A program made the translations under genes and the position numbers. A stretch of 64,000 bases of DNA from Candidatus Kuenenia stuttgartensis. Its GTDB lineage: Bacteria; Planctomycetota; Planctomycetia; Planctomycetales; Planctomycetaceae. The notes under the pieces were generated by a model. That model ran no database searches. It was not told the DNA's origin and worked only from the letters and a program-made list of their open reading frames with translations. This document shows positions 39,463 to 47,427 of the stretch, piece after piece; the first letter of the stretch is position 1, and every line of letters begins with the position of its first letter. The stretch covers positions 62,001-126,000 of the forward strand of contig CAMAVB010000001.1 in the NCBI GenBank assembly GCA_945861465.1, given 5' to 3'.

Positions 39463-39485
39463 CTTGACTCTCTGAGTCGAGTGCC

Positions 39486-39521
39486 TTAGGACCGCTCGAT
39501 AAATAACTGTCGCTTTTTATA
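39486..39521 (+). repeat. truncated family-1 MITE arm
   Basis: TTAGGACCGCTCGATAAATAACTGTCGCTTTTTATACC matches the right arm of the 34826-34930 copy, then similarity stops. Confidence 0.6.
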
Positions 39522-41229
39522 CCTGCACTTTAGGCGAGGAACTCATCGCCTTTGGCAACTGATGTTTTCAAAAACACCGAGGCTCACGACAATGATTTAG
39601 AGGTTACCAAGCTTCTAACGCACTGAAGGAGCCACGGATGGCCAAGGGTAAGAAATCGTCGAAGCGTCCGCAAGCGAAGCACAAGCCGAAGAGCCGTTCA
39701 TCGCAGCATGACAAGCGAAAGCGACTCGACACACCGAATCCCCGGCGGAAGAAGACCGTGAAGGCGAAGGTGCCGCTCACCGGGACGATGGCAGGTCTGG
39801 TCACGTCGATGGCCAGCATGCTGGATCGCGCATGGCGTTCCGGTTTTCGATCATTATGGCCGGGATGATGCTGGCCGGTGACCGTCGCGTGGCAGCCTCA
39901 TGGTTCATGGCTGCCGGAGTGCATGATGACTGGGATCGGTTTTATGATTGTCTGATCAGCGTCGGACGCAGGACACGATTGCTGGCTCAGCTGTTGCTGA
40001 TTGCTGTCGTAAGAAAGTTTGCGCCCGGTCCGGATGGTCACATGATTGTCGCGGTTGACGATTCGCCAATGCCGCGATACGGACGGCATGTTGAAGGCGC
40101 GGGCGTGCATCACAATCCGACGGCGGGGCCAGCCGATGGCGAATGGATGTACGGACACAACTGGGTGTCGCTGTGTTTTCTGGCGACGCATTCGCTGTGG
40201 GGAGTGATCGCATTGCCATTGCGATCGCTGCTGTATGTGCGTGAGAAGGACGTGCCTGCGCTGGAAGAGAAATATGGCTGGAAATTCCGCACAAAACTCG
40301 AACTGGCGGTAGATCTCGTGACATGGTTCGTGAAGTCTGTTCGTTCGCTGGACATTGAGTGCAAAATCTGGCTTGTCACCGATGGCGCTTATGCAGGACG
40401 CCCGGTTTTGAAGCCGCTGACCGATCTGGGTGTCGTCGTCTTTAGTCGGTTGCGGAAGGACGCCTGTCTGTTTGATCTGCCTCCTGCGCCAAAGCCCGGT
40501 CAGCCGGGTCGGCACCGCATCTATGGATGCCATCGCATCAGTCTCACAAAGCTTGCCGCTCGTGTGGGCGGTTGGGAGTCGATGACTTATCAATGTCGTG
40601 GTTCGATGGTGACGCGGGAATACAAAACGTTCCTCGCGACATCGCGACGTGTGAGCGGCGTCATCCGCGTTGTGATTGTGCGTTTTGACGATGGCGGCTG
40701 GGCGGCATACTTCTGCACTGACGCGCAGGTCGATGTCCGCGACATCCTCGAGACCGTTGCCGCCCGATGGGCGATCGAAGAGCATTTTTATGACGTGAAG
40801 GAAATCTGGGGAGCCGGTGAACAGCAGGTCCGCAACATCTGGTCGAACATCGGCTGCTGGCACCTGAATCAATGGATGTATACGCTGGTGGAGTTATGCT
40901 CGTGGGATGTCGCAAAACCAAAGCTGACCGACCGCAGCCATCGTCCGTGGGACAATCCCGACCGACGACCGTCTCATGCAGACCGCCGCTCCACAATCGA
41001 CCGAGAAATGCTGCGAAAACAATTTCTGGCGACTCTGCCCCGCACCCTGAACCTGAGGAAATTCAGAACGCTGATCAACGACGTGATCCGCCTGTCCACA
41101 TGACCAAGAGGATTCGCTCAACTGACTCCTGTCTTTTCCGCCAGATCGCCGCAATGCAACTCCACGCCCCAAGACTGCGCCAGTCAAACTCCAACCTCGC
41201 GGACTGTAAAGATTTTGTCTAAACTGCAG
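39522..41229 (+). mobile_element. insertion sequence (approximate ends)
   Basis: transposase plus short terminal similarity CTGCACTTTAGGC / CTGCAGTTTAGAC; left end coincides with the repeat breakpoint. Confidence 0.5.
39638..41103 (+). CDS. IS701-like/DDE transposase in two overlapping frames (39638-39868 and 39832-41103)
   Basis: MAKGKKSSKRP...TSMASMLDRAWR then -1 frame FRFSIIMAGMMLAGDRRVAASWFMAAG...VAVDDSPMPRYGRHVEG...WLVTDGAYAG...RWAIEEHFYDVKE. Confidence 0.75.
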
Positions 41230-41527
41230 TTTTGTTCAGCAAGTATTCCAGTATTTTGCGGTTTGGCTCAAATCCTTCCCAGTGACTATTTGTTCCGTCG
41301 GAAAGCCACAAAGCACGGAATGGCGGATCGTTCTTTGGATCAGCCTTAGCCAGCGAATTCACGTTGACCTCCATGTGCTCAATGACGAAGACTGCGGCCC
41401 ACTCTAATGCGTACGCATTCGGAACGACTACGGTTGCCGTCTCCACAACAGAATGCACAACAAAGAACGCGAAGACGCTGAGTCCGCCGAGCGTGAGAAG
41501 AAGGAGAATCAACTTGCCTCTTTTCAA
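41219..41527 (-). CDS. small hypothetical membrane/secreted protein
   Basis: MKRGKLILLLLTLGGLSVFAFFVVHSVVETATVVV; candidate cassette ORF. Confidence 0.5.
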   Translation of the reverse strand: MKRGKLILLLLTLGGLSVFAFFVVHSVVETATVVVPNAYALEWAAVFVIEHMEVNVNSLAKADPKNDPPFRALWLSDGTNSHWEGFEPNRKILEYLLNKTAV

Positions 41528-41583
41528 TGAGTCTCCTTTTTGCCTGACGTAGCGACAGCGGCAACGGGGCGCCGCCCAAAAAA

Positions 41584-41639
41584 AACTATAGTGGCAAATC
41601 TCGCTTTATAGGCGATTGCCGTTCACTGCTTTGTTACGA
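41584..41639 (-). other. attC-like site A (weak)
   Basis: reverse strand GTAACAAAGCAGTGAACGGCAATCGC-CTATAAA-GCGAGATTTGCCACTATAGTT; stop codon of upstream gene lies in the 5' core. Confidence 0.3.
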
Positions 41640-41957
41640 GACGTTGTCCGAAGTTCTCGGTTTGAAGGCGTATTTGAACACGTAGACGAACCACCCAATT
41701 CCGCCAGTGACGAGTATCAGCAGGAGCCAAGTCAACTTCGCGTTCGGATTTACAAACGACCGCAAGTATAGGTCCCTGATTGTAACAACCAGTGCCGCAA
41801 AGTTCAGCGCCATGCCGAGGAAATGGAGAGGGAAGATGGCCACTGGCGAGACTTGCGCACCGTTTGTGGCCCGGACAATTTGCACGAGAAAGTATGGAAT
41901 GTACATGGCCATGTACGCGAGGGCAGTGATCATGATGGCTCGTTCAGTTCGTGTCAC
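41634..41957 (-). CDS. small hypothetical integral membrane protein
   Basis: three hydrophobic spans; candidate cassette ORF. Confidence 0.55.
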   Translation of the reverse strand: MTRTERAIMITALAYMAMYIPYFLVQIVRATNGAQVSPVAIFPLHFLGMALNFAALVVTIRDLYLRSFVNPNAKLTWLLLILVTGGIGWFVYVFKYAFKPRTSDNVS

Positions 41958-41990
41958 GTAGAATTACCTCAGACGCCCGCATCAACCCCG

Positions 41991-42073
41991 CAACGCCAAA
42001 AATCAGGCGGTTGCCGCGACTGACTTGCCATGTGAGAAACCGACGACGGCAACTCGCCTGCATCTTATTAGCC
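41991..42073 (-). other. attC-like site B
   Basis: reverse strand GGCTAATAAGATGCAGGCG[A]GTTGCCG...CGGCAACCGCCTGATTTTTGGCGTT: 13-bp stem with one bulged A; loop conserved with site C. Confidence 0.45.
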
Positions 42074-42556
42074 AATTTCCCCGCTCTGATCTCTGGTGAT
42101 ACCACGGCCACGCTTTTGCGCGAACCAACGCGCTGCACGATTCAAAAGAAAGTGCATCATGATGCACCAGACGACTGTTACTCCGGGATCAATCGTTGAA
42201 AGGAAATGAGAAACTGCAACATCCATCGAACCCCCGTCATGAGGATTCAAATTGGCAAGGAGCATCATAGTCAAGATTGCCGGCAAAGTCAGGATCACAC
42301 CGGGAATGACGATCGCAGGATGATGGTACCAGCTGGGAGGCGAAGGTGATGAGAGTGGCAACGTGTCAAATGCGAAACGGCCCGCGCATGCATACACACA
42401 GATCACGGCAATCAAAAGGCGTACTAATCGGGAATGGGCGAGCATGGCGTACGAAGACTTTACGATTAGTGAATGGAACGCTGTAAAAGCGATAGTCGTT
42501 GACGCAAGCGCGATGCCGTTCCGAGTGCCGGGCTTCGATCCTTGGCTAACGATCAT
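42068..42556 (-). CDS. small hypothetical membrane protein
   Basis: hydrophobic spans; stop codon lies in site B; candidate cassette ORF. Confidence 0.5.
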   Translation of the reverse strand: MIVSQGSKPGTRNGIALASTTIAFTAFHSLIVKSSYAMLAHSRLVRLLIAVICVYACAGRFAFDTLPLSSPSPPSWYHHPAIVIPGVILTLPAILTMMLLANLNPHDGGSMDVAVSHFLSTIDPGVTVVWCIMMHFLLNRAARWFAQKRGRGITRDQSGEIG

Positions 42557-42630
42557 GATCAGCCGGTTGCCTCGACTGACTTTCCACGTGAGAAAGCGCC
42601 GACGGCAACTCGGCTGGATTGTCTCGTTAG
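42546..42630 (-). other. attC-like site C (best)
   Basis: reverse strand CTAACGA-GACAATC-CAGCCG[A]GTTGCC...GGCAACCGGCTG-ATCATGA-TCGTTAG: paired 7-bp outer box, symmetric 7-nt unpaired spacer, 12-bp inner box with one extrahelical A. Confidence 0.55.
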
Positions 42631-43160
42631 TTGGCCTTCTTGGCCTTCATACTCTTGTCGACTTTGTCTCTGTAAAGAACGATTTCGATGTGCTTCATCA
42701 CAGGAGCGTTCGGGAGCCATCTTTGATACACGAGTAACGGATGACCATTGAAAGATCTGCCGAAGCAGAGCGATTGTCCAAATTTGTCAGTTGCCGTGAG
42801 CCAATATCTCTCCGATCCGCTGTCCGGCATACCCGTACTTTTCAATCCGTGGTGTGAATCATGCGACCAGTTGGCGGAATGGAAATCTCCTGACTTGAAG
42901 GTCTGTCGTAGTTCTTCTTGCAGCGTTTCGACTCTCTGGTATGTGGCTTCATCCTTGGCCCGATATTCGGGCCACTGTTGCATGGCTGCTTCAAGTTGCT
43001 CGATTTCCGTCGCGTAATGCCTGTGGATGAAGGCCAGATAAGATCGGAGAGTGATGTATTGCCAAGCGACGAACGCCACAGGCAGTGCGATGATTGCGAG
43101 AACGATTACAACTCGGCGCCGGGCCCGCTTTGTCATTCGCACCTCGTTTCGGATTGCCAA
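42627..43160 (-). CDS. hypothetical protein with N-terminal TM
   Basis: RRRVVIVLAIIALPVAFVAWQYITLRSY; stop codon TAA lies inside site C; candidate cassette ORF. Confidence 0.55.
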   Translation of the reverse strand: MAIRNEVRMTKRARRRVVIVLAIIALPVAFVAWQYITLRSYLAFIHRHYATEIEQLEAAMQQWPEYRAKDEATYQRVETLQEELRQTFKSGDFHSANWSHDSHHGLKSTGMPDSGSERYWLTATDKFGQSLCFGRSFNGHPLLVYQRWLPNAPVMKHIEIVLYRDKVDKSMKAKKAN

Positions 43161-43180
43161 TTAACTCTGAAATACACCCG

Positions 43181-43290
43181 GCGCGTGATATTGGCCACCG
43201 CCGTCTAAAAACACTGAATTTTTGCTGGAGCGTCCCAATATCACACGGTGCGTTCAAGATCAAATATTGGACGCGACGCGGATATCACGG
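43181..43290. repeat. nested inverted repeats around GATATTGG / CCAATATC
   Basis: GCGCGTGATATTGG (43181), CCAATATCACACG (43234), AATATTGGACGC (43263). Confidence 0.4.
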
Positions 43291-43618
43291 TATCAACACG
43301 CCCGAGGAGTGTCAATTTTATCAAACTCGCAATGGACTGCGAGGTGAAGGATGTCTCTGAGCGAAACAGCGAGTTTGGAAAACAGTAGTCGATTGGCAAA
43401 GAATGACACTCAGTGGTGGCCAAATTGGATGGAAGACTACGCTCGCTCCAACAATCAAGTTAATGCGCCGCGAGTCGTTTGCGACCGACGTTGAAGAATG
43501 GCGAGCCTGGCAGCGGGCGCATCCGATGCACAGTGTGCCTCGGGACCTGGCAAATCCCGATGCCGCATTCCGCACGAATCCCGGCAATGCTCTGGATCTG
43601 AGTCAATAGCGCCGCTTT

Positions 43619-43688
43619 GGCGAGCGGCATGCGTCAGCTTGTCGGTACAAAAACGAGGTACCGGATGGCTCACGCCGCTCCGCTCGCC
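43619..43688. repeat. palindromic element GGCGAGCGGC...GCCGCTCCGCTCGCC
   Basis: inverted arms with inner CGGTACAAAAACGAGGTACCG. Confidence 0.5.
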
Positions 43689-43809
43689 GGTCTCATTTCT
43701 GGCCGCGCGGAGTATAACTCGACTTCTCGGCTGGCGGGTTGGCCTTTCAACTTCAGAAGCATCTGAACGCCATTTCGGGTTCCGCACTTTGTTCGCCGGC
43801 CTTGTCGTG

Positions 43810-44307
43810 CTACTTGATTGGCTCCGCTTTGACGTACAGAAATTTTGGTGCTTTGGAGTAGTATTTGAACATCGCCGGACAGATCCAACCCTCCATCGGT
43901 GGATCGTCCAATGAATAATAGTTGCCACCCGAATCGCCGCGAAGCCATGTGAGTTTCTTCTGATGGCCAGGGAACGGAGACGCCCCGAACAGGAGGCGAA
44001 ATCCCTTGTCAGCGTTTGGAATATCTTTGACCAGCACATCAATCATTTCCGGGACGCCGGCAACGAATGGTTCTTTGACCAAACCTGCGGAGCTATCGTC
44101 AAACACCCATGTTCCCTGATATCGATATGGCGCAATCACCATGATTGCGTTCTCACGCGGCGATGGCTGAATGCCAGGAAGCAGTTGATAGTGCCAGGCA
44201 ACTGCTCCGGCAATCATGAGTAAGCTAAGGCAGACAGCGACAAGTCGAAACTTGCGAATCTTTGGGTGAGCAGCCGGTGCGCGAACGTCAGTATTTTCGG
44301 TGTTCAT
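43810..44307 (-). CDS. hypothetical protein with N-terminal TM
   Basis: FRLVAVCLSLLMIAGAVAWHYQLLPG. Confidence 0.55.
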   Translation of the reverse strand: MNTENTDVRAPAAHPKIRKFRLVAVCLSLLMIAGAVAWHYQLLPGIQPSPRENAIMVIAPYRYQGTWVFDDSSAGLVKEPFVAGVPEMIDVLVKDIPNADKGFRLLFGASPFPGHQKKLTWLRGDSGGNYYSLDDPPMEGWICPAMFKYYSKAPKFLYVKAEPIK

Positions 44308-44339
44308 TGTATGAGCGATACGACTTGAGAAGTAGTTTT

Positions 44340-44416
44340 GTCGAACGACACCGTTCACTGAGCCGCGGCAATGGAGCGATGTTGCAGTTTATTGATTGAC
44401 GGTGGCCTTGTCACGA
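44340..44416 (-). other. attC-like site E (weak)
   Basis: reverse strand TCGTGACAAGGCCACCGTCA...TGAACGGTGTCGTTCGAC; stop codon TGA in the 5' core; one bulged A in the stem. Confidence 0.3.
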
Positions 44417-45061
44417 CTTGCGTTTCGTCTTGCCTCGCAATATCAAATACACCAATGCTCCGATACCAAGCAGAGCACCGGCACCACCAATGGCTTTCGA
44501 TAGGCGATGGAGATCATCGCCCCCGCCTGGAGCCTGAACGGGTTGAGTATCTGGCGGATTTGATGCTTGAGTCATTGAGGGTAGCGGTACCGAGATTGTC
44601 AACGAGTCGATGAAACGATTGATGGCCGTTGCGTCGGGCTTATTTCCGAGAGTCAATGCCATCAATTTGTATACAACGCCCTCGTGTCGAACAATCGCCT
44701 GTGTCAACTCGCCGACTGGACCTTTCGCCGTCATGTTCCAGACTTCGTGTCCCGACACCTGTTTCGTGGGCAAGCGAGTTACATCTCCACCGAGTTCTTC
44801 CGCAAGTCCTTCTTCAACAGATGATTGAATCAGTTTCTTCCCGAGCGGAAAATCCGTCTGGATCACGCCGAACTTCATTGTCTCGTCATTGGACACCCAA
44901 AGGCCCACAAACGGCGGCGGTGGTGCAGGCATTACCTGGAACAGAGTCGCATCTGGCGGCGTTACGGACAGGAACCCATCAGGGGACGTCCATGTCTGTC
45001 CATTCGCAAGTACTGGGAGAGCGAGCACGAAAAACGCTGCTGCCAAAACGCGACGATGCAT
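44411..45061 (-). CDS. hypothetical secreted protein with C-terminal TM
   Basis: MHRRVLAAAFFVLALPVLANGQTWTS ... GAGALLGIGALVYLILRGKTKRKS. Confidence 0.6.
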   Translation of the reverse strand: MHRRVLAAAFFVLALPVLANGQTWTSPDGFLSVTPPDATLFQVMPAPPPPFVGLWVSNDETMKFGVIQTDFPLGKKLIQSSVEEGLAEELGGDVTRLPTKQVSGHEVWNMTAKGPVGELTQAIVRHEGVVYKLMALTLGNKPDATAINRFIDSLTISVPLPSMTQASNPPDTQPVQAPGGGDDLHRLSKAIGGAGALLGIGALVYLILRGKTKRKS

Positions 45062-46730: not shown

Positions 46731-46777
46731 AAATCAAACCTTAGCGACCAAGAACAACTGGTGGGCGCGATTGGATT

Positions 46778-47251
46778 TCAATATGAGAAACCACTGACGC
46801 CAGAGCGGCTGGACCATTTTTGTTCGCCGCTTCCGTCAAGTTTCGCCGTTTGAAATCTTAACTGCTGCCGACGCATCAGCATCTTTCCGGGAAGTTTTGG
46901 CTGCAGAACCTGCAGCTGATCAATAGTATCGATCATTGAAAGCATTTGTTCAACTTGGTCGGCGGAAAGTGCCGCAAGAATCCTGGTGTCGTATTCTCTG
47001 CGAAGGTGCCGGGTCCGTGTTCGCAACTGCCGGCACGCGAAACAACTCGACGGAAAGTACTGCGGGTTGAACCTCAGTGCTTCGTAGATGTGGCGTTGCT
47101 CCTCCACGGAAAAAGTGAATTGCGAACCACAATCTTTGCACAAAATGCGAGCAGTAATGTACAGCGAACGCGGTGAAAGTGATCGAACTTGTTGTTCGAC
47201 GTTTGCGATCAGCGTCTGGTTATAGTCGAGGGCCACGTATACACCACTCAT
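46778..47251 (-). CDS. probable zinc-ribbon protein
   Basis: ILCKDCGSQFTFSVEEQRHIYEALRFNPQYFPSSCFACRQLR. Confidence 0.65.
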   Translation of the reverse strand: MSGVYVALDYNQTLIANVEQQVRSLSPRSLYITARILCKDCGSQFTFSVEEQRHIYEALRFNPQYFPSSCFACRQLRTRTRHLRREYDTRILAALSADQVEQMLSMIDTIDQLQVLQPKLPGKMLMRRQQLRFQTAKLDGSGEQKWSSRSGVSGFSY

Positions 47252-47427
47252 GATGAATCGGGGCTCAACAGTGCCATGGTCAAGATTGAAGCATTGATTC
47301 GAAACACTATCGCAGACCGAAAACGTCGCGAACGCATCTGGCGAGAGGTTGTTCGAGTGGTCCGTCATGGTGAAGGCATGCGAGCTTCATGTATACTGTG
47401 TGGTTGAGAATGGCACAATCGTACAAT

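Follow-up and report, generated by a model that had tools for sequence, protein, structure and literature searches.

Introduction

Clusters of attC sites lacking integrases (CALINs) hold at least two attC sites and no integrase, and it has been proposed that they arise by degradation of integrons (PMC9024848). Integrons have been reported in Planctomycetes (PMC2426708), and the same work found that pseudogenes made up about one third of the surveyed integron integrase (intI) genes and that two or more intI genes occurred in one fifth of the lineages with integrons. Covariance models of planctomycete attC sites and attC sites typical of the taxon are also documented (PMC8352920). Planctomycete integrons, CALINs, and intI pseudogenes are all already known. 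In this study, we describe a locus in a 64,000-nucleotide stretch (hereafter the window) of the genome assembly GCA_945861465.1 of Candidatus Kuenenia stuttgartensis (contig CAMAVB010000001.1, positions 62,001 to 126,000). The locus is a short minus-strand array of attC sites and gene cassettes, headed by an attI site and the first codons of intI, and it is very probably a degenerate chromosomal integron whose integrase gene was cut to 46 codons. The contribution of this study is a single genome holding several such relics, which have kept their attI or a tiny stub of intI.

The locus resembles a CALIN (PMC9024848) in having at least two attC sites on the same strand and no working integrase nearby, but it differs in keeping a readable attI and 46 intI codons, which makes an origin by decay visible. 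The integrons described from Planctomycetes share with it the phylum and the general attC plan; the locus in the window, in contrast, is incomplete and belongs to an uncultured freshwater genus, with several truncated heads in the one genome. It also differs from the pseudo-integrons (PMC2426708), since the intI copies here are cut to 33–98 codons, below the reach of the usual integrase profiles, while the cassettes and attI are retained. The attC sites of class 1 integrons (aadA1, aadA2, and others, from plasmid records) have the same R''/R' boxes, unpaired spacers, 6 + 6-bp stem, and extrahelical A, although they are about 60 nt long and the sites in the window are about 89 nt with a longer variable loop.

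Results

attC Sites in the Window

Contigs and genomes are labelled C and G; G000 is the genome under study, and G008, G011, and the like are relatives. The window lies within contig C1 (128.6 kb), the largest of the 474 contigs of the 8.2-Mb draft genome, and the genome-wide counts of repeats and intI copies given below are lower bounds. Among named records, the best matches to its PEPCK gene come from uncultured Planctomycetaceae (84–87% identity, with one record under another label) and from Fuerstiella (78%), which places the host as an uncultured planctomycete close to these.

A rule-based scan was built from the textbook attC plan of R''/R' boxes, near-equal spacers, a helix, one extrahelical base, and a second helix; the attC boxes that pair have the consensus RYYYAAC (R'') and GTTRRRY (R'). 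Site C (42544–42632, minus strand) was its sole match at a score of at least 18 in the 64 kb, and 60 shuffled windows (3.8 Mb) gave one match. Site C scored 19, and most class 1 attC sites score 18–19. The folding plan that a sequence-only reading of the window had seen in this site was borne out, with outer boxes CTAACGA/TCGTTAG, a 7/7-nt unpaired spacer, a 6 + 6-bp inner stem, and one extrahelical A. Its single-stranded DNA fold has a z-score of −4.2, and its R''/R' boxes (AACTAAC/GTTAGCC) are intact, making it the best preserved site of the window.

Two covariance models, neither containing a site from the window, gave further matches. The first (R1) was made from six attC sites elsewhere in the same genome and matched site C (E 6e-17), site B (41988–42074, E 6e-16), and site D (46739–46828, E 5e-7; E 1.6e-8 with filters off over 12 kb), all on the minus strand. 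The broader model (R2), trained on 26 sites from planctomycetes and three from class 1 integrons, matched C, B, and D (E 5e-4), and more weakly site A (41547–41639, minus strand, E 8e-4 with filters off), which R1 did not recover. R1 gave no match on class 1 integrons because it is lineage-specific; R2 recovered class 1 attC sites absent from its training set. Sites B and C contain 62-nt direct repeats that are 87% identical and 0.5 kb apart. Erosion of the cores was seen in B, which has AAT for AAC in R'', and in A and D, which have GCT for GTT in R' (GCTAAGG in D).

The attC repeat of the window was found again on at least six further contigs of the same genome, and R1 sites were present in 30 of the 60 genomes searched, often as a same-strand series. 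They adjoin an integron integrase in the canonical position at G003:C7, G003:C68 (four sites), G027:C3, G021:C1, and C223 of the genome itself. Among 43 aligned attC sites, three of them from the window, 88% of the cells were paired and two-sided changes occurred at 16 of 20 pairs, with a covariation score of 0.385 against 0.140 when shuffled and at most 0.08 when slid. Taken together, the geometry, the independent models, the covariation, and the intI adjacency in congeners identify sites A–D as predicted attC sites. A more distant relative (G049:C17:417447-421147, L114) shows the "inverted" integrase arrangement, with intI and the attC sites on one strand and the sites 3' of the gene.

attI and the Integrase Remnant

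On the plus strand from 43351, the sequence translates to MSLSETASLENSSRLAKNDTQWWPNWMEDYARS..., which corresponds to the N-terminal end of an integron integrase, and homology ends after the first 46 codons (43351–43488), which run divergently from the cassettes. In tblastn, this remnant matched the remnant on contig C159 with 70% identity (E 4e-17). When the intact IntI of G008 was used as the whole-genome query, residues 1–51 at the window remnant were matched with 59% identity (E 7e-13). The C159 copy in turn matched the intact IntI of G003:C68 with 51% identity over 92 residues, from Met to Met.

Between the remnant and cassette 1 lies the attI region or leader (43161–43350, minus strand), whose recombination core is GTTAATT with its G at 43165. 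The interval 43161–43477, between the open reading frames (ORFs) 42627 and 43810, is repeated wholly or partly at C159, C147, C46, C6, C62, and C51, and in congeners. The homology of the leader stops at ...TTCAGAG|TTA, and in eight loci, the window included, an attC comes next on the same strand. At G008:C193, the same leader stands beside an intact 452-residue IntI that is 96% identical to the C159 remnant. Because the search with this intact IntI matches the window remnant and its locus shares the leader, we consider the window locus to be the head of an integron. From these comparisons, 43351–43488 is assigned to intI codons 1–46 and 43161–43350 to attI, in the canonical divergent order. 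An attI thus stands between intI and the first cassette as in a complete integron; a full-length intI with its catalytic domain is absent, and only codons 1–46 were found. The sequence-only reading had seen no integrase; this holds for an intact gene but not for the 46-codon remnant, and the TIGR02249 integrase profile likewise gave no match on contig C1.

Assigning 43161–43477 to the attI of the surviving integrases was tried and rejected, with unconvincing local alignments of upstream regions and a plus strand that encodes the IntI N-terminus. The attI of the window also carries an inverted repeat at 43182–43247 (CGCGTGATATTGG and CCAATATCACACG, about 40 nt apart). It is missing in the C46 and C6 copies, which show a short GGCGCGT-like repeat at the gap, and it looks like a module that was inserted or deleted.

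Cassettes and the Junction Test

Insertion at G|TT should give a cassette whose first seven bases are complementary to the R'' of its own attC. Planctomycete and class 1 arrays supplied 31 consecutive pairs, with a mean agreement of 6.1/7, compared with 4.4/7 for non-cognate pairs, and none of 20,000 permutations equalled the observed mean. At the eight leader junctions, 49 of 56 positions matched (p = 2e-4).

The attI core and site C bound cassette 1 (42550–43164, minus strand), whose start matched its R'' at six of seven positions (GTTAATT against AACTAAC). This complementarity at the attI core is as integrase-mediated capture predicts. Its ORF, listed as 42627–43160, is an orphan with one N-terminal hydrophobic stretch and a stop codon inside site C; the TTG start adjoins the attI core, so the ATG at 43136 is the likelier start (42627–43136). 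Cassette 2 (41994–42549, minus strand) also reached 6/7 by inspection (GTTAGCC against GGCTAAT) and carries ORF 42068–42556, a hydrophobic orphan whose start codon is uncertain, with its stop codon in site B. Cassette 3 (41553–41993, minus strand) carries the hydrophobic ORF 41634–41957 with a PLDc_N domain (Pfam PF13396, E 4e-5) and ends in the weak site A, which holds its stop codon. A candidate fourth cassette is ORF 41219 (41219–41527, minus strand), taken from the ORF list, which lacks a recognisable attC of its own: none was recognised 3' of it in the R2 scan.

The six minus-strand ORFs that the sequence-only reading had assembled into an array at 41219–45061 are all present, and its observation that palindromes contain stop codons is valid for ORFs 42627, 42068, and, weakly, 41634. 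No convincing attC follows ORF 44411 (R2 12.6 bits, E 0.22) or ORF 43810 (10.0 bits, E 1.2), and these two ORFs lie beyond the intI remnant, outside the array. The array proper covers the stretch between the attI at 43165 and about 41.2 kb. Site D, which holds the stop codon of ORF 46778–47368, was missing from that reading together with its ORF. It lies 4.1 kb from site C, across the intI remnant from the main array, and is isolated and decayed; it is probably a second relic.

Gene Content Compared with Relatives

Homologues of the nine ORFs of the locus were searched for in 60 relatives. Five of the nine, including ORFs 42627, 42068, and 41219, had no match among them, and the best match of the treble-clef zinc domain ORF 46778–47368 was only 28% identical. 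ORF 41634 has a 54% homologue in G032 and fragments in G034, and ORF 45915 (exo/endonuclease/phosphatase) has homologues in three congeners (57–58% identity in two, 40% in the other). The closest genes to ORF 43810 (DUF6717) are in another family (65–69%), with genus paralogues near 60%, and no attC was found in the retrieved flanks of the DUF6717 homologues elsewhere. None of the nine is present in G011, whose PEPCK is the closest among the relatives (95%).

A vertically inherited cluster is not what was found: none of the ORFs is in G011, five are unmatched in the 60 genomes, and the rest are scattered singly. The comparisons indicate that the array genes are mostly orphans or patchy in distribution. 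NCBIfam named only ORF 45915 (exonuclease-like, weak and below the cut-off) and a transposase, Rfam gave nothing relevant over 39–48 kb, and PADLOC gave no match.

Other Integron Relics and Integrases in the Genome

Relics with attI or a tiny intI stub are found in the window and on at least five other contigs (C159, C147, C46, C6, and C281), and their stubs are 33–98 codons long. A stop codon interrupts the intI of C281, where an attC lies on the expected side. A larger sister relic on C147 (L041, 8764–17462) has a 33-codon intI stub and an attI, then at least eight same-strand attC sites with cassettes; its first cassette follows the junction rule at 7/7.

Full-length integrases are also encoded. 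The IntI of C322 has the usual HSLRHSF motif and is 46–47% identical to the G008 type. A second full-length IntI adjoins an attC on C223 (L047, 1210–2541) and has HSLLHSF instead of HSLRHSF. Loss of the catalytic arginine should inactivate a tyrosine recombinase, and the C223 IntI, though unbroken, is probably inactive because HSLLHSF lacks this residue. Further damaged intI copies have an internal deletion (L039 on C52, 1016–1915, and L053 on C269, 8537–9077) or a broken frame with a stop codon (L050 on C191, 10971–12138). For a single genome, this seems an unusually large number of integron relics.

Flanks of the Array

The distal end of the main array adjoins an IS701-family element (plus strand), which runs from its left end at 39484 at least through its transposase at 39832–41103 (266 bits against NF049999, cut-off 170). 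About 40 nt at its left end (39484–39523) are shared at 92–95% with at least six further places in the genome, one of them near the intI of C191. Synteny with G011 stops at 39483 on the left, which coincides with the end of this element, and starts again at about 50843 on the right, on separate G011 contigs.

Between the intI remnant and ORF 43810, a dispersed repeat of about 100 bp (43617–43716) has at least about 30 copies in the genome at 80–96% identity, and it also occurs 3' of PEPCK in G011. It folds as a long GC-rich hairpin (z −2.3) and may be a miniature inverted-repeat transposable element (MITE) or a repetitive extragenic palindrome (REP)-like element.

Discussion

Our results suggest that the locus once held an integron like that of G008, in which intI was read on the plus strand, the cassettes were read on the minus strand, and attI separated intI from the array. 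At least three circular cassettes would have been captured by its integrase through recombination, at G|TT, between attI and the bottom strand of attC in its folded form. All of intI past codon 46 would later have been lost by deletion or rearrangement, leaving the array static, with no integrase of its own to reshuffle it. The attC cores would then have eroded, B by AAC to AAT and A and D by GTT to GCT, and the IS701-family element would have come to sit at the distal end. The identity of the attC sites, the attI homology and junctions, the truncation of intI, and the orphan or patchy genes are read from the sequences; the order of events is inferred, as are the past activity of the integrase, the inactivity today, and where any expression of the cassettes would come from. 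The CALIN proposed from the sequence alone was right about the attC sites and about the lack of a working integrase, which agree with the CALIN definition, but the attI and the intI head point to a decayed integron.

Several points weigh against this interpretation. The intI remnant is short, with 46 codons and 59% identity to the G008 IntI, so that the longer C159 copy carries much of its attribution. Site A is a weak match, and the junction of cassette 3 agrees at only 5/7. The genome is a draft with an estimated contamination of 3.7%, although the contig of the window is its largest one. In G011, an empty site could not be demonstrated, as synteny is broken on both sides of the array.

The relic may instead still be in use, its attI serving as an acceptor for a resident integrase that acts in trans, so that several attI platforms share one integrase. 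The attI core GTT in the window is intact, several attI-headed arrays exist side by side in the genome, and C322 encodes a full-length IntI. However, an attI usually works with its own integrase, and the C322 IntI is just 46–47% identical to the G008-type integrase that is paired with these attI; moreover, the attC cores of B, A, and D are decayed. We consider this continued use unlikely. The wider proposal that the truncated arrays form one distributed integron, with orphan attI sites as parallel platforms served in trans by the resident integrase, is similarly doubtful. If true, storage and movement of cassettes would be possible at many places in the chromosome.

It is much less probable that the main array is a CALIN formed without an integrase of its own, by a trans-acting integrase that inserted cassettes at a secondary chromosomal site. 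Contig C1 has no intact intI, a full-length IntI exists elsewhere in the genome (C322), and no attI is in sight near site D, but the main array is headed by attI and the 5' end of intI in register with the first cassette, which contradicts such an origin there; site D may have arisen in this way. That the locus is no integron at all, and that a dispersed palindromic repeat (a transcription terminator, REP, or MITE) happens to follow its genes, can practically be dismissed: the genome does hold other dispersed repeats such as the 43617–43716 element, but attC-specific R''/R' cores with an extrahelical base and the intI adjacency in relatives would be unexpected for terminators or MITEs, and the junction test contradicts it, as the cassette starts are complementary to their own R''.

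The outcome that the sequence-only reading had named as its refutation did not occur. The attC covariance models matched sites B and C strongly, the gene order was not conserved among the 60 relatives, and the search of the wider genome for intI and attC found further contigs with attC, truncated heads, and the full-length IntI of C322.

The complementarity between R'' and the cassette start can be checked from the sequence alone, and in draft genomes it can serve to locate attI sites and the limits of arrays. In this genome, the trace of a CALIN arising by decay is readable, with attI and intI stubs heading several arrays and an intact counterpart in a congener. As integrase profiles overlook short remnants, as TIGR02249 did here, some CALINs elsewhere may likewise be integrons with deleted integrases.

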